From Limnohabitans sp. (GTDB lineage Bacteria; Pseudomonadota; Gammaproteobacteria; Burkholderiales; Burkholderiaceae_C), in assembly GCA_021731425.1 (NCBI GenBank), contig JAKFXJ010000021.1:1-22670 (forward strand): DNA of 22,670 bases, written 5' to 3'. A program made the position numbers and the translations under genes. Positions 10,496 through 22,596 of this stretch are shown here, in pieces (position 1 is the first letter of the stretch; every line of letters begins with the position of its first letter). Below the pieces are notes generated by a model. The model saw only the letters and a list, made by a program, of their open reading frames with translations. It was not told where the DNA came from and ran no database searches.

Positions 10496-12049
10496 ATGAC
10501 ACGCACCATTCCGATTCACCCCAGTACCGATGCCCCCAACCCTGCAGGGCTGCAAGGCGACGGCATGGGTTGCCACGCCGGGACCGAAGCCATGGTGGCT
10601 GCTGCCAAGCAAGCTGGAAAGTCAGAGGTGCTTGAGCAGTTCGCTCGTGACTACCCGCGCCAACCCGATGCCGGTCCACACGACCAGCCGCAAAGCATGT
10701 GCCCGGCCTTTGGCTCGCTGCGTGTGGGTTTGCGCATGAAACGCACAGCGACCATCTTGTCGGGTTCGGCCTGCTGTGTGTACGGCCTCACGTTCACCTC
10801 GCATTTTTACGGCGCCCGCCGCAGCGTGGGCTATGTGCCCTTCAACTCCGAGTCGCTGGTCACCGGCAAACTGTTTGAAGACATCCGCGAAGCGGTGCAT
10901 GCCGAAGCTGACCCGAGTCAGGTCGACACCGTCATCATCATCAACCTGTGTGTGCCCACCGCCAGTGGTGTGCCGCTGCAGTTGCTGCCCAAAGAGATCA
11001 ACGGCGTGCGCATCATCGGCATCGACGTGCCCGGATTTGGTGTCCCCACGCATGCCGAAGCCAAGGACGTGCTGGCCGGGGCGATGCTGAAATACGCCCG
11101 CGAAGAAATCATGAGCGGCCCGGTGGCCGCCCCCCGCGCAGGTCGTGGCGACAAGCCCACGGTGGCATTGCTGGGTGAGATGTTCCCGGCCGATCCGGTC
11201 ATCATCGGCCAAATGCTCGCCCCCATGGGCCTGGCCGCTGGCCCGGTGGTGCCCACCCGCGAGTGGCGCGAGTTGTATGCCGCGCTCGACTGCTCGGTGG
11301 CCGCCGCCATCCACCCCTTTTACACCGCCAGCGTGCGCGAATTCAAAGCCGCAGGTCGCCCTGTGGTGGGCTCGGCTCCAGTGGGTCTCGAAGGCACACA
11401 AGACTGGTTGCAAAACATTGGTCAAGCTGCAGGCATTGCGCAGGCGCAGATCGATGTGGCGCGCAACCAGGCTCTGACACAAATGCGTGGCCTCTTGATG
11501 CAAAAACCGATCAACGGTCGCATCACTCTGAGTGGTTACGAAGGCTCCGAGTTGTTAGTGGGCCGTCTGCTTGTTGAATGTGGCGCCGATCTGCGCTACG
11601 TGGGCTCGGCCTGTCCCGCCACCGAGTGGAACGCACAAGACATCGCCTGGCTACAAGCCAAGGGTGTGCAGGTGCAAATGCGTGCCTCGCTGGAGCAAGA
11701 CCTGAACGCCATGTACGAGTACCGGCCGCAGCTGGCCATTGGCACCACCCCGGTGGTGCAGATCGCCAAGCAAAACAGCGTGCCGTCTTTGTACTTCACC
11801 AACTTGATTTCGGCTCGTCCTTTGATGGGTGTGGCGGGTGCTGGGTCTCTGGTGCAAGTGGTGCAAGCGGCCATGGGCAACCAAGCCCGCTTTGACGCCA
11901 TGAAGGATTTCTTTGGTGATGTGGGTGCAGGCCACGCCGCAGGCGTGTGGGAATCGGTGCCCAAAGACCGGCCCGAGTTCAAGGCTGAGACCCGTCGCCA
12001 GATTGAAAAACTCTTGAAAAAGCGCAAAGCCGAGGAGATGGGTTCATGA
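10496..12049 (+). CDS. bchY: Chlorophyllide a reductase subunit BchY, 517 aa
   Basis: BchY is one half of the NifDK-like catalytic component. The N-terminal region carries the cysteines expected for the inter-subunit Fe-S cluster: Cys26 ([11 protein letters not shown]), Cys69 ([11 protein letters not shown]) and the Cys93-Cys94 pair ([11 protein letters not shown]). The remainder follows the nitrogenase-like fold, with [20 protein letters not shown] and [20 protein letters not shown] typical of BchY. An AGGA ribosome site lies before the ATG, 30 bases after bchX. The stop overlaps the bchZ start by ATGA, so the two subunits are translationally coupled, as expected for a 1:1 complex. Confidence 0.96.
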
Positions 12050-13572
12050 ACCAAGTGTCCCCACCCCCCAGCACCGTGGCCAAGCCCAAGTTGCCCCTCA
12101 TCCTCGACCACGACCGCGCAGGCGGTTACTGGGGCGCGGTGTATGTGTTCACCGCCATCAAGGGTTTGCAGGTCGTGATCGACGGCCCGGTCGGCTGCGA
12201 AAACCTGCCGGTGACCTCGGTGCTGCATTACACCGATGCGCTGCCTCCGCACGAGTTGCCCATTGTGGTGACGGGTCTGGCCGAAGAGCAGCTGGGTCGC
12301 GAAGGCACCGAAGGTGCGATGAAACGGGCGCATGCCACGCTCGACCCTGAATTGCCCGCCGTGGTGGTGACCGGCTCGATCGCCGAGATGATCGGTGGTG
12401 GTGTCACGCCCGAAGGCACCAACATTGCACGTTTTTTGCCACGGACCATTGACGAAGACCAATGGCAATGTGCCAACCGCGCCATGTATTGGCTCTGGAG
12501 TGAGTACGGGCTGCGCAAAGTGCCTGCCCGCAAACCTTTCGAAGAACGCCCTGTGGGCGAAAAGCCCCGCGTCAACATCATTGGCCCCTGCTACGGCACC
12601 TTCAACAGCCCCAGCGATTTGGCCGAAATCCGCCGCTTGGTGCAAGGCATCGGCGCCGACGTCAACATGGTCTTCCCGTTGACCAGTCACTTGGCCGATG
12701 TGTCGCGCCTGGTCGAAGCCGATGTGAACATCTGCATGTACCGCGAGTTTGGCCGCATGCTCTGCGAGGCGCTGGAGCGCCCCTATTTGCAAGCGCCCAT
12801 TGGCCTGCACAGCACCACCAACTTCTTGCGCAAATTGGGCGAGTTGCTGCACCTGGACCCTGAGCCCTTCATTGAGCGTGAAAAGCACACCACTTTGAAG
12901 CCCATGTGGGACCTGTGGCGCTCGGTCACCCAAGACTTTTTTGCCACCGCCAGTTTTGCCGTGGTGGCGGGTGAGACCTATTCGCGGGGCCTCAAAAACT
13001 TCCTCGAAAACGAAATGGGCTTGCCCTGCCGCTTCAGTGTGTCACGCACCGCGGGCAACAAGACCGACAACGCCGCTGTGCGCGAACTGGTCAAAACGCA
13101 AACACCACTCATCATGTTTGGCAGCTACAACGAGCGCATGTACCTGAGTGAAATCTCAGGCGGCAGCCCCATGCGTGCGGCCTTCATTCCTGCGTCCTTC
13201 CCTGGCGCCATCATCCGCCGCCATACCGGCACGCCCTTCATGGGCTACAGCGGTGCGAGTTATCTGATCCAAGAGGTGTGTAACGCGCTGTTTGATGCGC
13301 TGTTCCACATCCTGCCCTTGGGCACGGAAATGGACAAAGTCGAAGCCACCCAAGCGCGTGGTGTGGTCGCTCCCAACGCGAGCTGGCAAGACCAGGCCCA
13401 GCAACGCCTGCGCGATGTGGTGCAAAGCCAGCCGGTGCTGGTGCAAATTTCAGCGGCTAAGCGCTTGCGCGACCAGGCCGAACAACTCTCGCAGGCCCAA
13501 GGCCACAGCGAGGTGACCGAAGCCCATGTGAACGCGGCCAGCCGCGAACTGGGTCTGGGGATTGCGGCATGA
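12046..13572 (+). CDS. bchZ: Chlorophyllide a reductase subunit BchZ, 508 aa
   Basis: BchZ pairs with BchY to reduce the C7-C8 bond and make the bacteriochlorin ring. It opens with [20 protein letters not shown] and carries the cluster cysteine at Cys51 ([19 protein letters not shown]), followed by [14 protein letters not shown] and [19 protein letters not shown]. The last 60 residues (from about [14 protein letters not shown] to [14 protein letters not shown]) are the small PCP_red-type helical domain shared with BchB. The stop codon overlaps by ATGA with a short ORF leading to pufB, and no terminator is seen, so read-through into puf is likely. Confidence 0.96.
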
Positions 13573-13700
13573 ACCACGCCCCCAACAACACACCAGCCAG
13601 TGCCGCCGCGTGCGGTATGGCTAATCCGATGTCGTGGCCTTTGGCTGCGGATGCCCATCTGCGCGGGCTGTGCGCAACCCGGGTCGCAAGGCCTCGTTAA
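13569..13700 (+). CDS. Short ORF (43 aa) in the pufQ position, unrecognised
   Basis: An ATG overlapping the bchZ stop (ATGA) opens 43 codons ending in TAA, 12 bases before the pufB start. The stop leads straight into the pufB ribosome site. In many purple bacteria pufQ occupies this slot, but PufQ is about 70 residues with a membrane span. This peptide is [20 protein letters not shown] followed by a Trp, Ala and Arg-rich tail, with no membrane span. It may be a leader peptide that couples bchZ and pufB translation, an unrelated small protein, or chance. Position supports it; sequence does not identify it. Confidence 0.38.
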
Positions 13701-13712
13701 CAGGAGCAAAAC

Positions 13713-13856
13713 ATGTCCACCAAGACATCAATTTCCGGACTCACCGATGAGGAAGCCCAGGAGTTCCACCACTACTGGATGCAGGGCACCGTGGGCTTCA
13801 CAGCAGTTGCTGTGTTGGCACACATCCTGGTCTGGGCGTGGCGTCCCTGGTTCTGA
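13713..13856 (+). CDS. pufB: LH1 antenna beta subunit PufB, 47 aa
   Basis: The protein has the LH beta layout: a soluble N-terminus with [19 protein letters not shown], one membrane span, and the bacteriochlorophyll-binding His37 in [14 protein letters not shown] with the conserved C-terminal aromatic cluster. It forms the outer ring of the core antenna with PufA. AGGAG lies before the ATG. The start codon sits in a small inverted repeat (ATGTC and GACAT arms, 13713-13728). Unusually, pufA does not follow directly: a hairpin and a 74-codon gene come between. Confidence 0.95.
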
Positions 13857-13874: not shown

Positions 13875-13900
13875 AACCATAGATTGACGGAGTCACTGTC

Positions 13901-14125
13901 ATGCCCAACACAACTCACCTCAACGAGGCCCATTCGCGTGCGGATGAGTCTCCCGCTTACTGGTCCATTTTCCTCATCGGATTCGGATGTCTGTTTGTGG
14001 TCGTCGTACTGGCCAAACTGGTCGGCGTTCACTGGCGGGATCTGCTGCCTGGTGCAGAAGATGCCAAGAGCATGAGTCAGGGTGTGAAAGCTGCTGTGTA
14101 CACCTTCATGTCCCACATCATTTAG
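13901..14125 (+). CDS. Unrecognised 74-aa single-span protein between pufB and pufA
   Basis: I do not recognise this as a standard puf product. It has a polar N-terminus (residues 1-20), one strong membrane span (about 22-43, [20 protein letters not shown] and on), then [13 protein letters not shown] and a likely amphipathic helix (about 57-74) ending SHII. This layout, including an LP soon after the span and a His plus two hydrophobic residues at the end, recalls Rhodobacter PufX, though I claim resemblance of form, not proven homology. GGAG lies eight bases before the ATG. The TAG stop is part of the pufA ribosome site TAGGAG, so translation of pufA is probably coupled to it. Codon use looks like that of its neighbours. 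A role as an extra LH1-reaction-centre subunit is inference. Confidence 0.82.
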
Positions 14126-14135
14126 GAGATTCACC

Positions 14136-14345
14136 ATGTGGAGAATTTGGCGACTTTACGACCCTTTGCGTGCCATGGTGCTGCAGGGTATTTTCTTGTT
14201 TGGCCTGGCCGCGATGATTCACCTCATCTTGCTCAGCACCAACAAATTCAACTGGCTCGACGGCGCGAAAAAGCCCGTAGCAGCATCGGCGCAAAACTCG
14301 CCGCTGCCGACTTCGGTGGCTTCGCTCCCAGCGCCCAAGTCTTGA
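14136..14345 (+). CDS. pufA: LH1 antenna alpha subunit PufA, 69 aa
   Basis: The sequence [20 protein letters not shown] is the typical LH1 alpha start, followed by [21 protein letters not shown]. His29 ligates bacteriochlorophyll and Trp40 is the usual hydrogen-bonding aromatic of the 870-nm type antenna. The roughly 25-residue Ala/Ser/Pro-rich C-terminal tail is longer than in Rhodobacter. The ribosome site GGAG overlaps the stop of the preceding 74-codon gene. A strong hairpin follows the gene and should protect the upstream antenna mRNA. Confidence 0.95.
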
Positions 14346-14362
14346 TCCAGGACTTGCCGTCC

Positions 14363-14398
14363 AGGTGCTGACATTGAAATCCATTCAATGCAGCACCT
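14363..14398 (+). other. Strong pufA-pufL intercistronic hairpin
   Basis: AGGTGCTG (14363-14370) and CATTGAA (14372-14378) pair with TTCAATG (14384-14390) and CAGCACCT (14391-14398). This gives 15 base pairs with a single bulged A at 14371 and a five-base loop. No T-run follows, so it is not an intrinsic terminator. In Rhodobacter a hairpin at this place shields the pufBA segment from 3' decay and gives antenna excess over reaction centre; the same role is inferred here. Confidence 0.88.
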
Positions 14399-14429
14399 GT
14401 TCATCCACTGAAAGCAGGAGGACCCAACC

Positions 14430-15266
14430 ATGGCCATGCTGAATTTTGAGAAAAAGTACCGTGTTCGCGGTGGTACCCTGCTGGGTGGTGATTTGTTCGA
14501 CTTTTGGGTCGGCCCGTTTTACGTCGGTTTTTTCGGCGTCACAACCCTTTTCTTTTCGTTCCTAGGTACTGCCCTCATCTTGTGGGGCGCCTCACAAGGC
14601 CCAACCTGGAACATTTGGCAGATCAGCATCGCACCGCCTGATCTGTCGTATGGCTTGCGCTTTGCGCCCCTGATGGAAGGCGGCCTGTGGCAGCTCATCA
14701 CGGTGTGTGCCATCGGCGCCTTTGGCTCGTGGATGATGCGCGAGGTCGAAATCTGCCGCAAGCTGGGCATGGGCTTTCATGTGCCTGTGGCCTTTGGTGT
14801 GGCCATCTCGGCTTATGTCACTTTGGTGGTGGTGCGGCCGGTGCTCATGGGCGCTTGGGGCCATGGCTTTCCGTACGGCATCTACAGCCACCTGGACTGG
14901 GTCTCCAACGTGGGCTACCAGTACCTGCACTTTCACTACAACCCGGCGCACATGATCGCCGTGAGTTTCTTCTTTGCCAGCGTGTTTGCTCTGTCGCTGC
15001 ACGGCGGTCTGGTCCTTTCCTCCACCAACCCTACACCGGGCACCGTCGTCAAGACACCCGAGCACGAAGACACCTTCTTCCGCGACTTCATCGGTTATTC
15101 GGTGGGCACATTGGGTATCCACCGAGTCGGCCTGTTCCTGGCATTGGCGGCAGTCTTGTTCAGTGCGCTGTGCATTGTGCTCAGCGGCCCCTTCTGGAGC
15201 CGTGGCTGGCCCGAGTGGTGGAGCTGGTGGCTGAACCTGCCGATCTGGTCCCAGTGGCCTGTGTGA
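14430..15266 (+). CDS. pufL: Reaction centre L subunit PufL, 278 aa
   Basis: PufL binds half of the special pair, the active-branch cofactors and lines the QB site. With Met as residue 1, His154 and His174 (bacteriochlorophyll ligands) and His191 and His231 (non-haem iron) are all present, matching the usual numbers 153, 173, 190 and 230 of the processed protein. The QB-site acids Glu213 and Asp214 (EHEDTFFRD) are also kept. Five membrane spans are evident. A perfect AGGAGG ribosome site lies at 14416-14421. Length is normal (about 275-282). Confidence 0.98.
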
Positions 15267-15315: not shown

Positions 15316-16293
15316 ATGGCCGATTATCAAAACCTGTTCACCACGGTGCAAGCCGTGGGTCCAGTCCACCACGGGGTGGAGCTGGGTCACGGCAACAGTC
15401 CGCGCACGGGACAACCTGTGATCAGTTACTGGCTCGGCAAGCTGGGCAATGCCCAGCTGGGTCCGATTTACCTGGGAGGGCTGGGTTTGGCCTCGCTGGT
15501 GTGTGGTTTGATCGCCTTCACCTTGATCGGCATGAACATGCTGGCCTCGGTCAACTACGACCCGATCCAATTTGTGCGCCAGTTGTTTTGGTTATCGCTG
15601 GAGCCGCCACCCCCAAGTTACGGCTTGAGTTTGCCGCCGCTCAACCAAGGCGGCTGGTTCCTCATCGTCGGACTGTTCCTCACCGCGTCCATCATGTTCT
15701 GGTGGGCCCGTACTTACCGTCGCGCGGTTGAGCTGGGCATGGGTTTACACATCGCTTGGGCTTTTGCAGCAGCGATTTGGTTGTTCTTGGTGCTGGGCTT
15801 GTTCCGCCCCATCTTGATGGGTTCTTGGGGTGAGGCTGTGCCTTACGGCATCTTCTCCCACCTGGACTGGACAGCGGCCTTCTCGCTGCGCTACGGCAAC
15901 CTGTTCTACAACCCGTTCCACGCGCTGTCTATTGTGTTCCTCTATGGCTCGGCCCTGCTGTTTGCCATGCACGGTGCCACCATTTTGGCTGTGACCCGTT
16001 ACGGCGGTGAGCGCGAGATCGAGCAGATCACCGATCGCGGTACAGCCTCTGAACGTGCGGCCTTGTTCTGGCGCTGGACCATGGGTTTCAACGCGACCAT
16101 GGAATCGATTCACCGTTGGGCCTGGTGGTTCGCCGTCCTGTGCCCCATCACGGGCGGTATCGGCATCTTGCTGACCGGCACCGTGGTCGACAACTGGTAC
16201 CTGTGGGCCATCAAGCATGGCGTGGCGCCACCGTACCCCGAAATTTTTCCAGCGATGGCTGACCCCACGCTGAGCACAGGAGTCAAGCCATGA
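15316..16293 (+). CDS. pufM: Reaction centre M subunit PufM, 325 aa
   Basis: PufM is the partner of PufL and holds QA. His182 and His202 (bacteriochlorophyll ligands), His219 and His266 (iron ligands) and Glu234 (bidentate iron ligand, in GEREIEQ) are present at the expected places. The common signature stretch [20 protein letters not shown] is intact. The C-terminus is extended ([18 protein letters not shown]), as is usual in species whose reaction centre carries a bound cytochrome. GAGGAG precedes the ATG. The stop overlaps pufC by ATGA. Confidence 0.98.
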
Positions 16294-17348
16294 ACCCGAA
16301 CACCACTCAATCCCATTGGATGGGCCGCATGGCCAAAGGCTTGGGCCTGGCACTGGTCGGCCTGGTGCTGGCCGGTTGCGAGCGCCCGATTCCCGAATCG
16401 GTGCAAAGCGGCTACCGGGGCACCGGCATGGCGCAGGTCTACAACGCGCGTTTGCTCGAAGTTAAAACCGAAAAGAACCAGCCGCCTGTGGCCATTCCAT
16501 CGGCCGGTTCTGACGGGCCCAAGGCCTCGCAGGTCTACAAGAACGTCAAAGTCCTGGGTGACCTGAGCGTGGGTGATTTCAACCGCCTGATGGTCTCCAT
16601 GACCAGTTGGGTGGCGCCCAACGAGGGCTGCGCTTATTGCCATGCCTTGCCCAACTTTGAAGACGACAGCAAATACACCAAGGTGGTGGCACGGCGCATG
16701 GTCGAGATGACCCAGCACATCAACGCCGACTGGCAGCCGCACGTCGCCCAGACCGGGGTGACCTGCTACACCTGTCACCGTGGCGAGCCCGTGCCCAGCG
16801 CCATCTGGTTCAAGTCCAACCCGCAGCCTTATGGCTCGAACTTCATGGGCGACAAGGCCGGACAAAACGAGCCTTCGCCCGTGGTCAATTTGTCATCTCT
16901 GCCCAACGATCCCTTCACCCCGTTTTTGCTGGACAAGCAAAACATCCGTGTGAATGGCCCCACGGCGCTGCCCTCGGGCAACCGCCAGTCGATCAAGCAA
17001 GCCGAGTGGACCTATGGTCTGATGACGCACATGTCCACCTCGCTGGGTGTGAATTGCACCTACTGCCACAACACGCAGTCTTTCCAGAACTGGGAAAACA
17101 GCCCACCACAACGCGTGACCGCCTGGCATGGCATCCGCATGGCGCGGGACCTGAACTTGACCTTCATGGAGCCCTTGACCGAAGTCTTCCCGGCGCACCG
17201 CAAGGGCCCCATGGGTGACGTGGCCAAGCTCAATTGCGCCACTTGCCACCAAGGGGCCTACAAGCCGCTGAACGGCGCACCCATGGCCAAGGATTTCCCC
17301 GAGTTGCTCAAACCTGCTTTGGCTGCGTCCAAAGTGGCGGCCAAGTAG
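16290..17348 (+). CDS. pufC: Reaction centre tetraheme cytochrome c lipoprotein PufC, 352 aa
   Basis: PufC re-reduces the photo-oxidised special pair from the periplasmic side. Four CxxCH haem sites are seen at 114-118 (CAYCH), 159-163 (CYTCH), 256-260 (CTYCH) and 316-320 (CATCH), two in each half as in the known structures. The signal peptide ends in a lipobox, LVLAGC with Cys30, so the mature protein should be lipid-anchored in the periplasm. Translation is coupled to pufM by ATGA. No terminator is visible before crtA, 35 bases on. Confidence 0.97.
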
Positions 17349-17383: not shown

Positions 17384-18262
17384 ATGGAAGCCCTTACCCC
17401 CCTTCATGACCCGCTGTCCGGCGTGGTGGTGGTGTTGCTGGCCGATTTTTTGCGGCAGCATCAGGGCTGGGGTTGGTTGCGTCTGGTGGCCGGGGCCACG
17501 CCCTACAAGGACGTGCCCGGCCTGACCATGGTCAAGGTCATGGGCAGTGGCCATGGCGGCGGTTTCAGCTTGCGCCCCAGTGCCACGCATCAGGGCCTGA
17601 TCTGCACTTTCAGCCACCTTGATCTGGCCCTCAAGTTTTTGGACAGCCCGGCTGTGCAGGCCTACCGCAGCCGAGCCCGTGAGTGCTGGACGGGCGTGTT
17701 GTCCGTGCAATCGGCCCGGGGCCATTGGGACAAACAAGCCTGGCAAGCGAGCAGCGCACAAGCGCTGGGCATGCCTGGCGAGAAGCAAGACAAGAGCGAG
17801 CAGGGTGATTCAGGCCAGAGCTTGGACGGCCAGCCGCACAGCGGTCCCTTTGCCGTGCTCACCCGCGCTAGCATCGTGCCCACCAAGGCCATGGCTTTTT
17901 GGCGTTATGCCCCGGCCGCACAAGCCGACCTGGGGCAAGCCCCCGGTTGCCTGTTGGCCATGGGCCTGGGCGAAGCTCCTTTGGTGCGCCAATGCACTTT
18001 CAGCCTGTGGCAGGACACGGCCGCCATGCTGCAGTACGCCCGTCAGGGCGCCCACCAGGTGGCCAGTGCCGCTGCTTACAAGCACCAGTTTTTTTCTGAA
18101 TCGCTTTTTGTGCGCATGCAGGTGCTGCAGATGGCCGGTGTCTGGCAAGGCCGCAGTTTCGATGCGCCCGCCAAGGCCGTTCAGAGCACCTCCCCAGCCG
18201 ATGTGGCGCTGGCCGGCAGCCGCCTGGCCGGTGTCCCCAGCCTGGAGGTCAGCCATGTCTGA
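17384..18262 (+). CDS. crtA: Spheroidene monooxygenase (acyclic carotenoid 2-ketolase) CrtA, 292 aa
   Basis: CrtA adds a keto group at C2 of methoxylated acyclic carotenoids, giving spheroidenone-type pigments under oxygen. VVVVLLADFLRQHQGWGWLR, GLTMVKVMGSGHGGGFSL and the later FAVLTRASIVPTKAMAFWRY and LLAMGLGEAPLVRQCTFSLW are characteristic. About residues 131-153 form a polar Gln/Ser/Gly-rich insertion (GEKQDKSEQGDSGQSLDGQ), which makes the protein longer than the roughly 240-residue Rhodobacter enzymes. No strong ribosome site precedes the ATG. The end overlaps crtD by eight bases. The crtA-crtD-crtC order matches Rubrivivax. Confidence 0.9.
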   Translation: MEALTPLHDPLSGVVVVLLADFLRQHQGWGWLRLVAGATPYKDVPGLTMVKVMGSGHGGGFSLRPSATHQGLICTFSHLDLALKFLDSPAVQAYRSRARECWTGVLSVQSARGHWDKQAWQASSAQALGMPGEKQDKSEQGDSGQSLDGQPHSGPFAVLTRASIVPTKAMAFWRYAPAAQADLGQAPGCLLAMGLGEAPLVRQCTFSLWQDTAAMLQYARQGAHQVASAAAYKHQFFSESLFVRMQVLQMAGVWQGRSFDAPAKAVQSTSPADVALAGSRLAGVPSLEVSHV

Positions 18263-19787
18263 GCACCGCGTTGTCATCGTCGGCGCGGGCATGGGCGGCT
18301 TGTGCAGCGCCATCGCGCTCGCGCACCAAGGGCTCGATGTCACCGTGGTCGAAGCCTCGGGTGCACCCGGTGGCAAGGTGCACAGCCGCGAGGTGAACGG
18401 CGCACACATCGACAGTGGCCCCACCGTGTTCACCATGCGCTGGGTGTTCGACGACTTGCTGCGCAGCGTGGGCACCAGCGTGGAGGCCGAGATGCGCATC
18501 ACGCCGCTGCAGGTGCTCGCCCGCCACTTCTGGCCCGATGGCAGTCAGCTTGATTTGTCCGCCGATGCTCAGACCAGCGAAGCCGCCATTGCCGCCTGGG
18601 CGGGTGGGGACGAAGCCAGGCGCTTTCGAGATTTTTGCAAGACCACGCGCCAGCTCTACGCCACGCTCGAAGGCCCCATGATTCGCGCCCAGCGCCCCAG
18701 CATGGGCGGCTTCATGGGCGATTTGGGCTTCAAAGGCTTGGGTGTCTTGGCCCAACTCGGCCCCATGCGCAGCCTGTGGCAACAACTGGGCCACCAATTC
18801 ACCGACCCGCGTTTGCGCCAGTTGTTTGCGCGCTACGCCACCTACTGCGGCTCCTCGCCTTGGCAGTCGCCCGCCACGCTCATGTTGATCGCCCAGGTCG
18901 AGATGGACGGGGTCTGGTCGGTCGAAGGCGGCATGGTCGGCATGGCCCAAGCACTGGCCCGAGTGGCCCGCCGCCGTGGCGCGGTGTTCCGCTACCACAG
19001 CAGCTGCCAGCGCATTGAGCAGCGCCAAGGCCGCGTCTGCGGTGTGCACCTGCAGTCGGGTGAATTTTTACCAGCCGACCGCGTTATTTTTAATGGCGAT
19101 GCCGCCGCTTTGCGCCAAGGCTTGTTGGGCGACGACGTGCGCCGTTCTGTGCCAACAGACGCACCGCCACGCTCCTTGTCGGCCTTGACCTGGTCCTTGA
19201 ATACACCTGCCGAAGGCGTGGCGCTGGACCGGCACAACGTGTTTTTCCAGAGCACCTACGCCAGCGAGTTCGAAGACATCTTTGAGCGCCAGCGCTTGCC
19301 CGAGCAGCCCACGGTCTATGTCTGTGCACAAGACCGACCCGCTGCGTTGCCGTACGGCCAAGCCGAGCGCCTGTTTTGTTTGGTCAACGCCCCCGCCTGC
19401 GGTGATGGCAGCGCAATCACCGAGGAGGCTTTAGAACAATGCCAAACGCACACCTTTCAGCACCTGCGTCAGCTGGGCCTGCATCTGCAACCCACGGTGA
19501 GCAACAGCCTGCGAACGACGCCGCAGGATTTTCATCGGCGCTTTCCGGCCAGCGGGGGAGCCCTGTACGGGCAGGCGACGCACGGCTGGACCAGCATCTT
19601 CAGCCGACCTGGCTCCACCACACCCCTGCAGGGCCTGTATCTGGCGGGGGGCAGCGTGCACCCGGGACCGGGCGTGCCGATGGCGGCCTTGTCCGGGCAG
19701 CGGGCGGCCGAGGCGCTGATGGCGAGCCTCGCTTCGACCAGCACGTTCCCGACGGGGGCTACCTTTGGTGGTATGTCGACGCCATGA
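18255..19787 (+). CDS. crtD: Hydroxyneurosporene/methoxyneurosporene desaturase CrtD, 510 aa
   Basis: CrtD is a flavin-dependent 3,4-desaturase of the phytoene desaturase family. The N-terminal dinucleotide fold is VVIVGAGMGGLCSAIALA with the GxGxxG pattern starting at Gly10, and the C-terminal flavin motif is YLAGGSVHPGPGVPMAALSG. The ATG at 18255 has a GGAGG ribosome site and gives the expected N-terminus; the frame is open further upstream inside crtA but that is not coding. CrtD rather than CrtI is favoured by position between crtA and crtC. The last 25 or so residues (ASLASTSTFPTGATFGG and on) lie over codons that read as conserved CrtC in another frame. Confidence 0.9.
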   Translation: MSEHRVVIVGAGMGGLCSAIALAHQGLDVTVVEASGAPGGKVHSREVNGAHIDSGPTVFTMRWVFDDLLRSVGTSVEAEMRITPLQVLARHFWPDGSQLDLSADAQTSEAAIAAWAGGDEARRFRDFCKTTRQLYATLEGPMIRAQRPSMGGFMGDLGFKGLGVLAQLGPMRSLWQQLGHQFTDPRLRQLFARYATYCGSSPWQSPATLMLIAQVEMDGVWSVEGGMVGMAQALARVARRRGAVFRYHSSCQRIEQRQGRVCGVHLQSGEFLPADRVIFNGDAAALRQGLLGDDVRRSVPTDAPPRSLSALTWSLNTPAEGVALDRHNVFFQSTYASEFEDIFERQRLPEQPTVYVCAQDRPAALPYGQAERLFCLVNAPACGDGSAITEEALEQCQTHTFQHLRQLGLHLQPTVSNSLRTTPQDFHRRFPASGGALYGQATHGWTSIFSRPGSTTPLQGLYLAGGSVHPGPGVPMAALSGQRAAEALMASLASTSTFPTGATFGGMSTP

Positions 19788-20647
19788 GTGACGACGGTCA
19801 ACACGGCATCACCCTCATTGCCTTTGTCGGCAGTGTGTTCTCGCCCTATTACGCCTGGGCGCGCGGGCGCGGACCGGCCCATGCCGACAACCACTGCGCC
19901 CTGAACGTGGCCATCTACAGCAAAGGCCAAGGCCGCTGGGCCATGACCGAGCGTGGCCAGCGCCATTGCGCCCGCAGCGCCCGCCAGTTCACCATCGGCC
20001 CGAGCCAACTGAGCTGGGACGGCGACTGCTTGACCATCGACATCGACGAGGTGTGTGTGCCCATTCCGCGCCGCGTGCGCGGCCGCATCAAGCTGTGGCC
20101 GCAGCAATTGTTTGGCTACTCCACACCGCTCGATGTGAATGCCCAGCACCGCTGGGGGCCACTGGCACCCAGCTCGCGCATCGAGGTGGACCTGAATGCC
20201 CCCGATCTGAAATGGCAAGGCCACGCTTATCTGGATTCCAACGAAGGCGACGAACCGGTGGACCGGGGTTTTCACACCTGGGATTGGTCCCGTGCCCGTA
20301 CACGCGATGGCAGCACCGTGGTGTTTTACGACATGCAAGCGCCTGGCACCGAAGACCGTGTGCTCTCGCTGCGTTTCACGCCGCAGGGCACGGTCGAGCC
20401 CATGGCCACACCCCCGGCGCAGCGCCTGTCCAAAACCGGCTGGCGCATCGACCGCCGCATGCGCAGCGCGCAAGCGGTGCGTGTGCACGAACAACTCGAA
20501 GACACGCCCTTTTACCAGCGTGCCTTGCTGCAATTTGATCACGCAGGCGAGCCTTTGCTTGCCTTTCACGAAACCCTGTCGGTGCCGCGTTTGGTGTCAC
20601 CGGTGGTTCAAGCCATGCTGCCCTTTCGCATGCCAAGGCGGGCTTGA
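19784..20647 (+). CDS. crtC: Acyclic carotenoid 1,2-hydratase CrtC, 287 aa (start uncertain)
   Basis: CrtC adds water across the terminal double bond of neurosporene or lycopene, the first step to spheroidene-type carotenoids. The sequence GITLIAFVGSVFSPYYAWAR is diagnostic, as are WAMTERG, GWRIDRRMRSA and the stretch GFHTWDWSRARTRDGSTVVF. The ATG at 19784 overlaps the crtD stop (ATGA) and gives a length like that of Rhodobacter capsulatus CrtC. However, 17 codons upstream in the same frame read FDQHVPDGGYLWWYVDA, which I recall as conserved in longer CrtC proteins. There is no ATG, GTG or TTG between that stretch and an ATG far inside crtD at 19439. The start is therefore provisional. Confidence 0.85.
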   Translation: MSDDGQHGITLIAFVGSVFSPYYAWARGRGPAHADNHCALNVAIYSKGQGRWAMTERGQRHCARSARQFTIGPSQLSWDGDCLTIDIDEVCVPIPRRVRGRIKLWPQQLFGYSTPLDVNAQHRWGPLAPSSRIEVDLNAPDLKWQGHAYLDSNEGDEPVDRGFHTWDWSRARTRDGSTVVFYDMQAPGTEDRVLSLRFTPQGTVEPMATPPAQRLSKTGWRIDRRMRSAQAVRVHEQLEDTPFYQRALLQFDHAGEPLLAFHETLSVPRLVSPVVQAMLPFRMPRRA

Positions 20648-20784: not shown

Positions 20785-20937
20785 ATGTCTAACTCAGACA
20801 AAGTCTGGCCAACGGGACTGACCGAGGCCGAATCGGAAGAGATTCACCGAAATCTCATCCAGGGTACGCAGATCTTCGGCATGATTGCCGCATTTGCCCA
20901 TCTGCTGGCCTACATCTATTCACCCTGGCTCAAGTAA
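20785..20937 (+). CDS. pucB: LH2-type antenna beta subunit PucB, 50 aa
   Basis: The sequence WPTGLTEAESEEIHRNLIQG, one membrane span, His39 in FAHLLAYIYSPWLK and the earlier histidine of EEIH follow the LH2 beta pattern (the B850-type ligand and a membrane-interface His). The ending SPWLK resembles the TPWLH ending of LH2/LH3 beta chains more than the RPWF ending of the pufB product at 13713. It pairs with the alpha gene 12 bases downstream. AAGGAG precedes the ATG. Confidence 0.9.
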   Translation: MSNSDKVWPTGLTEAESEEIHRNLIQGTQIFGMIAAFAHLLAYIYSPWLK

Positions 20938-20949
20938 AGGAAAATCATC

Positions 20950-21144
20950 ATGATCTACTCGAAAATGTGGTGTGTGGTGAAACCTTCGGTGGGTATTCCG
21001 GTGTTCATTGCGGCTGTGGCGATCTCGTCGTTCAGCGTGCATTTGGCCCTGACAACCAACACCACCTGGGTGAAAAGCTTCCTGAACGGTGGTACCAAAG
21101 TGGTCGCTGCGGCGCCTGCTGCGGACGCTGCGGTGAAGAAGTAA
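20950..21144 (+). CDS. pucA: LH2/LH3-type antenna alpha subunit PucA, 64 aa
   Basis: The protein aligns without gaps to LH2 alpha chains: KMWCVVKPSVGIPVFIAAVA, His31 (ring bacteriochlorophyll ligand) in SVHLAL, then TTNTTWVKSFLNGG. At the positions equal to Tyr44 and Trp45 of the 850-nm antenna of Rhodoblastus acidophilus, this protein has Phe44 and Leu45. That pair is found in the 820-nm LH3 form. The tail GTKVVAAAPAADAAVKK is Ala-rich and typical of betaproteobacterial alpha chains. It is directly followed by a hairpin and then a pucC-like gene. Confidence 0.92.
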   Translation: MIYSKMWCVVKPSVGIPVFIAAVAISSFSVHLALTTNTTWVKSFLNGGTKVVAAAPAADAAVKK

Positions 21145-21198: not shown

Positions 21199-22596
21199 AT
21201 GAACACCACCAAAAATCGCAGCAACTGGGGTATGGCTTTGGCCAGTTGGGGTCCTAGGTTTCTCCCCTTTGCCGACGCCGCCAGCGATGATTTGCCGCTG
21301 TCGCGTTTGCTGCGCTTGTCGCTGTTTCAAATTTCTGTCGGCATGGCCATGGTCATGCTGGTGGGCACCCTCAACCGCGTGATGATCGTGGAGCTCAAAG
21401 TCTCCGCCACGCTGGTGTCCTTCATGGTGGCCTTGCCCTTGCTCATTGCGCCTTTGCGTGCGCTCATTGGTTTTCGCTCGGACAACCACCGCTCCCAACT
21501 GGGCTGGCGGCGCGTGCCCTACATCTGGATGGGCAGCTTGCTGCAGTTTGGTGGCTTTTCCATCATGCCGTTTGCGCTCTTGGTGCTCGCCGGTGCCGGG
21601 CAAGCCAGCCAGGCTCCGGCCTGGGTTGGCCAGTTGGGCGCTGCAGGTGCGTTTTTGTTGGTGGGCCTGGGCATGCACACCGTGCAAACCGCAGGCCTGG
21701 CCTTGGCCACCGACCTGGCCCCGCCCGAGCGCCAGCCCCAGGTGGTGGGTCTCATGTATGTGATGCAGCTGATCGGCATGATTGGCAGTGCCTTGGTGCT
21801 GGGCTATTTGCTGCACGACTACAGCCCTGGCCAGCTGATTCGTGTGGTGCAGGCTGTGGCGGTGACCACACTGGTCCTGAATGTGATCGCGCTTTGGAAG
21901 CAAGAACCGCGCAGTCGGCTGCGCAAACCCGGCACGCCCATAGAACACACCTTTGCGCAAGCCTGGCAACTGTTTTGCCAAGGTCCCAACACACTGCGCC
22001 GTTTGTTGGCGGTGGGTTTGGGCACCATTGCCTTCACCATGGAAGACGTGTTGCTCGAACCCTATGGCGGCGAGATTTTGACCATGAGTGTGTCCAGCAC
22101 CACGCTGCTCTCGGCCACTTTGGCGCTGGGCGGTCTGCTGGGTTTTGCTTGGGCTTCGCGCGTGTTGGGGCGCGGTGGCGATGCGTACCGCATGTCCGGC
22201 TGGGGGGCCTGGGTGGGTTTGCCCGCCTTCGTCTGCGTCATTGCCTCCGGCCCTCTGGCCATGCCCGCCTTGTTTGTGCTGGGCATTTTCTTGATTGGCT
22301 TAGGGGGTGGTTTGTTTGCACACGGCACCCTCACGGCCACCATGCAGCTGGCCCCACCGGGACAGATCGGTTTGGCCATGGGCGCTTGGGGCGCTGTGCA
22401 GGCCACCGCCGCGGGTGTCGGTATGGCCGCAGGCGGCTTGGTGCGTGATGGCGTGGCCCTGATCAGCACCCCCGTCATGGGCTATTCGGCGGTCTACGCC
22501 ATCGAGATCCTTTTGCTGGGCATGACCCTGTGGGCCATGGGACATTTGCTGCGTTCTGTGCCCGCTGCTGTACGCCCGCCCGCCATCTCTGCATAA
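21199..22596 (+). CDS. PucC/LhaA-family antenna assembly membrane protein, 465 aa
   Basis: This BCH2-type major facilitator relative has about 12 membrane segments. Its near-N-terminal PRFLPFADAASDDLPLSRLL followed by LSLFQISVGMAMVMLVGTLNRVMI is diagnostic, as is TDLAPPERQPQVVGLMYVMQ in the middle. The family (PucC, LhaA, Bch2/G115) helps insert or deliver bacteriochlorophyll to LH1 or LH2. Placement right after pucBA suggests PucC; by sequence alone I cannot separate PucC from LhaA, so no symbol is given. The chosen ATG has no Shine-Dalgarno sequence. An internal ATG at 21232 with GGGG shortly before it is an alternative that would drop 11 residues. Confidence 0.92.
   Translation: MNTTKNRSNWGMALASWGPRFLPFADAASDDLPLSRLLRLSLFQISVGMAMVMLVGTLNRVMIVELKVSATLVSFMVALPLLIAPLRALIGFRSDNHRSQLGWRRVPYIWMGSLLQFGGFSIMPFALLVLAGAGQASQAPAWVGQLGAAGAFLLVGLGMHTVQTAGLALATDLAPPERQPQVVGLMYVMQLIGMIGSALVLGYLLHDYSPGQLIRVVQAVAVTTLVLNVIALWKQEPRSRLRKPGTPIEHTFAQAWQLFCQGPNTLRRLLAVGLGTIAFTMEDVLLEPYGGEILTMSVSSTTLLSATLALGGLLGFAWASRVLGRGGDAYRMSGWGAWVGLPAFVCVIASGPLAMPALFVLGIFLIGLGGGLFAHGTLTATMQLAPPGQIGLAMGAWGAVQATAAGVGMAAGGLVRDGVALISTPVMGYSAVYAIEILLLGMTLWAMGHLLRSVPAAVRPPAISA

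Follow-up and report, generated by a model that had tools for sequence, protein, structure and literature searches.

The 74-codon gene that separates pufB from pufA in the puf operon of Limnohabitans sp. very probably encodes a paralogue of the LH1 beta chain that has diverged and lacks the BChl ligand. We refer to the ORF at 13901..14125 (+), and to its protein family, as X, and we describe X as a pseudo-beta because it appears to descend from beta and does not have the features by which a working beta is defined. As far as its sequence indicates, the product would most likely occupy a pigment-free place among the beta chains of the LH1 ring or guide ring assembly. The window, meaning the whole stretch of DNA analysed, comprises 22,670 nucleotides (assembly GCA_021731425.1, contig JAKFXJ010000021.1, positions 1-22,670, forward strand).

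The gene order in the window is bchZ - pufB - X - pufA - pufL - pufM - pufC, all on the + strand. The upstream neighbour is a bchZ-like gene of the chlorophyllide reductase family (12046..13572, PF00148 match), which adjoins pufB in all related loci that reach far enough. pufB (13713..13856; PF00556; NF040862, E 8e-24) encodes a normal short LH1 beta of 47 amino acids with both histidines and the Trp at +9. X itself, an ORF74-type gene of 74 amino acids, runs from an ATG at 13901 to a TAG at 14125, and a ribosome-site-like GGAG (13889..13892, +) ends eight bases 5' of its start. Its stop codon lies within TAGGAG (14123..14128, +) and so overlaps the ribosome-site-like motif of pufA (14136..14345; PF00556; NF040861, E 2e-17), which encodes a normal LH1 alpha of 69 amino acids. 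The original prediction of a gene with its own ribosome site, built into the operon through a stop codon shared with the pufA ribosome site, is borne out, and 79 of the 80 related loci show the same overlap. A stem-loop (14363..14398, +; fold of the 90 bases 14343-14432, z -3.3) lies between pufA and pufL, and since it comes after pufA, X belongs to the antenna side of the operon. The remaining genes are pufL (14430..15266, +; PF00124 and operon order), pufM (15316..16293, +; PF00124) and pufC for the RC cytochrome subunit (16290..17348, +; PF02276). An association of X with pufC is uninformative, as pufC is present in all 68 related loci that reach far enough.

ORF X is a genuine gene. A single-sequence search found 89 homologues, and a 25-row profile raised this to 1800 of 3961 candidates at E<=1 (the best 120 of the 1800 are listed); together with a dN/dS of 0.134, these homologues argue against a chance ORF. 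A scan of named genomes gave 140 loci with an X relative, of which the best 80 were kept, including Limnohabitans, Rubrivivax gelatinosus, R. benzoatilyticus, Piscinibacter, Methylibium, Curvibacter and Hylemonella. X lies between pufB and pufA in all 80, a figure that reflects synteny and is not a rate because the loci were picked for having X. The protein has 74 amino acids in 74 of these loci, 75 in four and 78 in two. Conservation in the pufB-pufA gaps of relatives, among them Limnohabitans and Rubrivivax gelatinosus, and purifying selection had been named beforehand as checks on the gene, and both turned out in its favour.

Selection was estimated from pairs passing the dS filter in 36 loci, mostly Limnohabitans-like. 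The dN/dS of X (0.134, 605 pairs) is not near 1; in the same 36 loci, pufB gave 0.031 (572 pairs) and pufA 0.072 (613 pairs). Along X, the values were 0.243 for the N-terminus, 0.136 for the span, 0.059 for residues 44-54 and 0.037 for the tail, so that X is under purifying selection that is strongest on the tail (residues 55-74, 14063..14122, +). For residue counts, we pooled the proteins of the single-sequence and profile searches (141 proteins), those of the 80 loci and the rows of a further alignment into one set of 222 distinct X proteins, a sample that leans towards close relatives of the query because of how the sequences were gathered. A tail-like motif is present in 217 of the 222. 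The X product might conceivably be irrelevant, with the segment serving only to space pufB and pufA and to set their ratio by translation coupling. The nearly universal overlap of the stop codon with the pufA ribosome site would suit such a spacer, but the dN/dS of the whole gene and of the tail and the retention of the tail motif speak for a selected protein, and we give the spacer reading hardly any credence.

The ORF itself seems to be on record already. In Roseateles depolymerans, ORF74 (RD2015_RS05155) lies, by locus numbers, between pufB (RS05150) and pufA (RS05160), and the three genes are described, citing Suyama et al. 2002, as co-transcribed in a major 1-kb puf transcript (PMC10037100). 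In a mutant of the sigma factor SP70, the transcripts of pufA, pufB and ORF74 were the three most reduced, with 0.71, 1.09 and 2.34% left, respectively, in sequencing without replicates (PMC10037100). X appears to be this ORF74, as judged by name, length and place. The available text of the report states no identity, function or beta ancestry for ORF74 (PMC10037100). The description of X as an unrecognised subunit thus holds only in part: the gene is apparently on record as ORF74, and at least 23 of the 89 homologues are named 'light-harvesting complex 1 beta chain' by one public source, but its beta nature is unstated in the portions of the literature found. Likewise, X as a pigmentless LH1 beta is stated nowhere in the available portions of the literature retrieved, and an earlier comment on ORF74 is possible in Suyama et al. 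2002 or Kasalicky et al. 2018.

The kinship to beta emerged from profile comparisons. X matched no Pfam or NCBIfam family at E<=5, and thus neither PF00556 nor NF040862. Searched alone against the PDB with phmmer, it gave eight weak matches at E<=10, of which the best four were LH1 beta-type chains (E 0.0013-0.057) and two of the other four were unrelated proteins (B9 and Cox7c); with a best E of 0.0013, no solved chain in the PDB is itself an X. A profile of 30 rows gave 48 PDB matches at E<=10. The first 40 were light-harvesting chains of beta type, led by chain B of 8Z81 (E 1e-15), and the last eight were unrelated (E 1.1 and worse). Thirty of the 40 are named beta, and the other ten, with names that do not specify alpha or beta, were all also matched by a true long beta; no chain among the 40 is named alpha only.

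In profile-profile comparisons, X reached 99.5% over 73 columns against the tail-bearing, or 'long', beta, 95.0% against the short beta and 0.8% against LH1 alpha as a control. As a further control, the X columns were shuffled 40 times within three segments. The score against the long beta was 109.6 (shuffles at most 19.2) and that against the short beta 39.2 (at most 17.7), and the score against alpha, 12.9, fell inside the shuffles (at most 18.5). The tail of X alone scored 24.1 against the long-beta tail, with 60 shuffles reaching at most 9.6. In whole-genome searches with the X profile, other matches (E<=0.001) in X-bearing genomes occurred only within a few hundred bases of X, at pufB. 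On a tree of 74 columns, a single branch (94/88; recovered in 93% of the bootstrap trees) sets X apart.

The long LH1 beta, represented by chain B of 7XXF (Rhodopila globiformis) and, by its sequence, chain B of 8Z81, shares with X the same order of parts over the 73 columns, namely an N-terminal region, a span, a WR-W-LPG junction, a linker and a C-terminal tail. The solved reaction centre nearest by pufM, 9M8M, also has a long beta. The long beta keeps the BChl-ligand His and the (S/T)GL..EA.EFH start, whereas X is without both. In X, the junction, a conserved stretch, extends from W45-R46 to LPGAE53 (14033..14059, +), and profile comparisons show it to be common to X and the tail-bearing beta.

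The residues that define the pigment site are largely gone. In the window, Lys39 (codon 14015..14017, +) aligns with the BChl-ligand His(0) of LH1 beta, Trp21 (13961..13963, +; anchored on W45-R46) with His(-18), and Leu48 (14042..14044, +) with Trp(+9). Among the 222 homologues, the ligand position is occupied by Lys in 103, Gln in 68, Ser in 18, Asn in 12, Arg in 11 and Thr in 6, and by Glu, Leu, Cys and His in one each. The only X with a ligand His (locus L111) is placed inside the X group on the tree, so that its His may be a reversal. His(-18) is absent in all 221 homologues that reach the place, Trp(+9) is kept in 71 of the 222 and is Leu in 103, Ala(-4) is replaced by Val in 116, and the N-terminal SGL motif occurs in none of the 222, a few of which are cut N-terminally. 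In pufB, both histidines, the Trp, the Ala and SGL are present in 38 of 38 distinct sequences.

These replacements also bear on whether X could be an altered antenna chain that binds BChl or a precursor through a Gln or Asn at the ligand position or through the frequent His or Gln at +5. Gln and Asn are able to ligate Mg. Position 0 is Gln or Asn in 80 of the 222 proteins, and position +5 is His, Gln or Asn in 216. The commonest residue at position 0 is however Lys, and the replacements at -4, -18 and +9 described above likewise count against such binding. We regard such an altered antenna chain as very unlikely and retain the pigmentless paralogue as the reading of X.

An AlphaFold2 model of X, weak as a whole (mean pLDDT 64, pTM 0.32), predicts a helix at residues 18-48, a loop and a tail helix at residues 60-73. 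The long helix (13952..14044, +; pLDDT about 81-85 in residues 21-40) would hold the membrane span, in agreement with the single span of the original prediction. The amphipathic C-terminus of that prediction is unsupported: the tail is predicted to be helical (residues 60-73, pLDDT about 66), but its hydrophobic moment of 0.27 is not unusual, being reached by 11% of shuffles.

The distribution of X was followed in two samples: 250 genomes of the window's family, 41 with PF00124 (RC L/M), and 300 genomes of the order, 38 with PF00124, of which three are common to the family sample. In the family sample, the X profile matched 40 of the 41 PF00124 genomes and no other of the 250; the match is pufB itself in one of these 40 (G115) and a long beta in seven. 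A census of 76 phototrophic Burkholderiales genomes found X in 58, and one long His-bearing beta and no X in 12. Four further genomes (G115, G317, G434 and G464) have a short beta and, upstream of pufB, an X-like protein that we designate Q', and two (G209 and G393) were assigned to none of these classes. The pufB region was read in all 12 long-beta genomes, all four Q' genomes and 24 of the 58 X genomes, and in these 24 the beta was always short. The other 34 X genomes, known from profile matches only, include 29 with a second match next to X, where pufB would lie, and five (G140, G202, G224, G229 and G355) with a single match of at least 93 bits, versus at most 79.9 for a long beta. One genome outside the 76 (G517) has X and no PF00124 match, on a contig that ends nearby. 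When the ORFs of the long-beta loci were scored with the X and Q' profiles, only the long beta itself was found in 11 of the 12; in the twelfth (L097), the ORF was over the length limit of that scoring and the long beta was read separately. Within this sample of Burkholderiales, X and the long beta thus exclude each other.

On a pufM tree with 67 rows, carriers of X and carriers of the long beta are intermingled, with 6 and 5 label changes, of which 3 and 2, respectively, are forced by well supported branches. The Q' genome G115 (locus L102) is nested among X carriers (96/83), a possible natural replacement of X by Q'. The mixed states and the position of G115 suggest that replacements among X, the long beta and Q' took place repeatedly. 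This pattern fits a shared role, and a history of gene fusion or duplication could give the same pattern.

Beyond the order, 369 genomes of the class and 204 of the phylum were sampled, and matches occurred in 7 genomes outside the order in the class sample and in 8 outside the class in the phylum sample. pufB is followed directly by pufA, without X between them, in 13 of these 15; of the other two, G548 (L142) gave no row and G817 (L141) no pufA. The 15 genomes have a long or a short beta, and eight carry Q' upstream of pufB. Over all samples, X-like Q' genes upstream of pufB were found at L196, L197, L199, L200, L201, L202, L136, L137, L102 and L118-L120, with tails like RRSVFGEAKAMAVSAIPFAFMG in alphaproteobacterial loci. 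At E<=1e-5, Q' has 272 relatives, with many from Methylobacterium, and none of the names among the best 120 of the 272 gives a function. Outside Burkholderiales, some loci have a short beta without X or Q' nearby (L143, L144 and L203) and others combine a long beta with Q' (L137, L196, L197 and L199-L202), so that the need for a tail is not universal and no simple trade holds.

Q', from Methylobacterium and others, is beta-like and, as in X, mostly without the ligand His. In profile-profile comparisons, it reached 97.8% against X and the same value against the long beta. It differs from X in its position, in forming a separate group on the tree (98/92, against 94/88 for X, on 74 columns only) and in a tail without a direct match to that of X (score 6.7, within the shuffles). 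Because Q' stands apart from X, pseudo-beta chains seem, on these sequence comparisons, to have arisen at least twice. One very diverged X (L121, genome G300) has a tail (DGVRKAANSVIPLMFM) closer to the long-beta and Q' tails than to those of other X proteins.

The position of Q' raises the question of PufQ, since pufQ in Rhodobacter lies upstream of pufB, as do the X-like ORFs of some genomes here, and orthology with PufQ was considered for this reason. The PufQ family PF05398 gave no match to X; at E<=1 it had no match in the window's genome, and in 60 Burkholderiales genomes no match passed the cut-off. X against PufQ reached 34.8%, and Q' against classical PufQ 2 to 9%; the X score of 23.4 was above all 40 shuffles (at most 16.7), with only five PufQ sequences in the comparison. 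The pufQ gene is the first of its puf operon, whereas X lies between pufB and pufA. Membership of X in the PufQ family is rejected on the lack of a PF05398 match, the low profile value and the different position.

A PufQ-like job is a separate matter and is the main rival to a place in the ring. X would then assist assembly or pigment supply: as a beta mimic, it would bind alpha, BChl or a precursor while the ring is built and would be missing from the finished ring. PufQ, as described in the available text of PMC5725709, is likewise encoded in the puf operon, is small, crosses the membrane once, has a conserved span and C-terminus, and interacts with ferrochelatase. The score of X against PufQ above all shuffles, the pufQ-like position of Q', and the four Burkholderiales genomes in which Q' takes the place of X, once nested among X carriers, all point in this direction, but the empty PF05398 searches, the low profile values of X and Q' against PufQ, the unmatched tails of X and Q', and the difference in position point away from it. 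On balance, we consider a PufQ-like role of X possible but rather unlikely.

The original picture of a single-span protein built into the operon holds, and X proved to be conserved, under purifying selection and akin to an LH1 chain; the suggested likeness to PufX found no such backing. The PufX gene lies downstream of pufM, a place taken by pufC in the window. The 48 PDB matches of the X profile, judged by their chain names, include no PufX, and kinship to PufX is not supported. Protein-W, protein-U and gamma were likewise not named among these matches. According to the available texts, the small membrane proteins PufX, protein-W, protein-U and LH1 gamma give the LH1 ring its form or line it (PMC10214105, PMC8564508, PMC9640540), and X may resemble them by analogy of job only. 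Protein-U is described as having two spans, whereas X has one long helix (18-48), a loop and a tail helix in its weak model.

A gamma-like X, after Blastochloris gamma or the Rhodopila gamma-like protein, would be present in many copies, occupying the pores that separate the beta chains, making the ring more stable and limiting the passage of quinones. Its output could approach the alpha/beta level because it is encoded in the antenna part of the operon with its stop overlapping the pufA ribosome site, and, being beta-like, it could pack among beta chains. The Rhodopila protein is, however, an antiparallel peptide of only 22 residues encoded far from puf (PMC9640540, as far as its text was available), in contrast to the 74 residues and puf location of X, and no report of a third stoichiometric chain was found in the portions of the literature covered by our searches. 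We hold a gamma-like X to be improbable. A high copy number of X is also disfavoured by the early protein chemistry of R. gelatinosus LH1, in which reportedly only alpha and beta were found.

We propose that the best explanation as a whole is a duplicated, pigmentless beta that is placed in the LH1 ring, and we give this combined reading a nearly even chance; that X is a ring component, taken as a claim of its own, is put tentatively at somewhat under even. In this scheme, an LH1 beta gene was duplicated, and the copy would have kept the membrane span, the periplasmic WR..LPG junction and the C-terminal tail while losing both histidines, the N-terminal beta motif and, in most cases, the Trp at +9. 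X would be made together with the antenna chains and would take up one or a few positions in the outer (beta) layer as the LH1 ring grows. There it would leave a pigment-free site, and the tail would pack on the periplasmic face if the beta orientation is kept. Without the N-terminal beta motif, X may perhaps be unable to pair with alpha in the normal way. By terminating, spacing or opening the ring, the pigment-free site would bear on quinone exchange. The [AS][PA][LMI]P motif of alpha, present in 67 of 78 alpha chains here, has been linked to contact with the cytochrome subunit (PMC9640540, available text), so that the tail of X need not serve this contact.

The quinone passage and ring size of LH1 have been explained for a few model species, in which unrelated helpers (PufX, W, U and gamma) are involved. 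If the proposal is true, the presence of a pigment-free copy of an antenna chain in 58 of the 76 phototrophic Burkholderiales genomes sampled would represent a new solution that arose by gene duplication. The X and Q' families, with many proteins that have no functional name, would gain an ancestry, and this ancestry would open a test of the origin of PufQ. A broader reading, in which the LH1 rings of Burkholderiales hold a genetically fixed pigmentless beta that substitutes for a normal beta at one position or a few and acts as a built-in gate, pseudo-subunits arose from beta at least twice (X and Q') and PufQ is perhaps a third, far-diverged case, is in our estimate doubtful.

Several other features of the window were observed. 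Between bchZ and pufB, a 43-codon ORF (13569-13700) overlaps the bchZ stop by four bases (ATGA), and its C-terminal end is conserved in the Limnohabitans-type loci examined. It has the same place as pufQ of Rba. sphaeroides and could be either a leader ORF or a DNA element that is conserved. After pufC, two ORFs at 17384-18262 (292 codons) and 19439-20647 (402 codons) have no Pfam match at E<=1e-5. They precede two more LHC-family matches at 20827-21072, which seem to be a peripheral pucB-pucA pair belonging to this cluster and are followed by a pucC-like gene at 21199.
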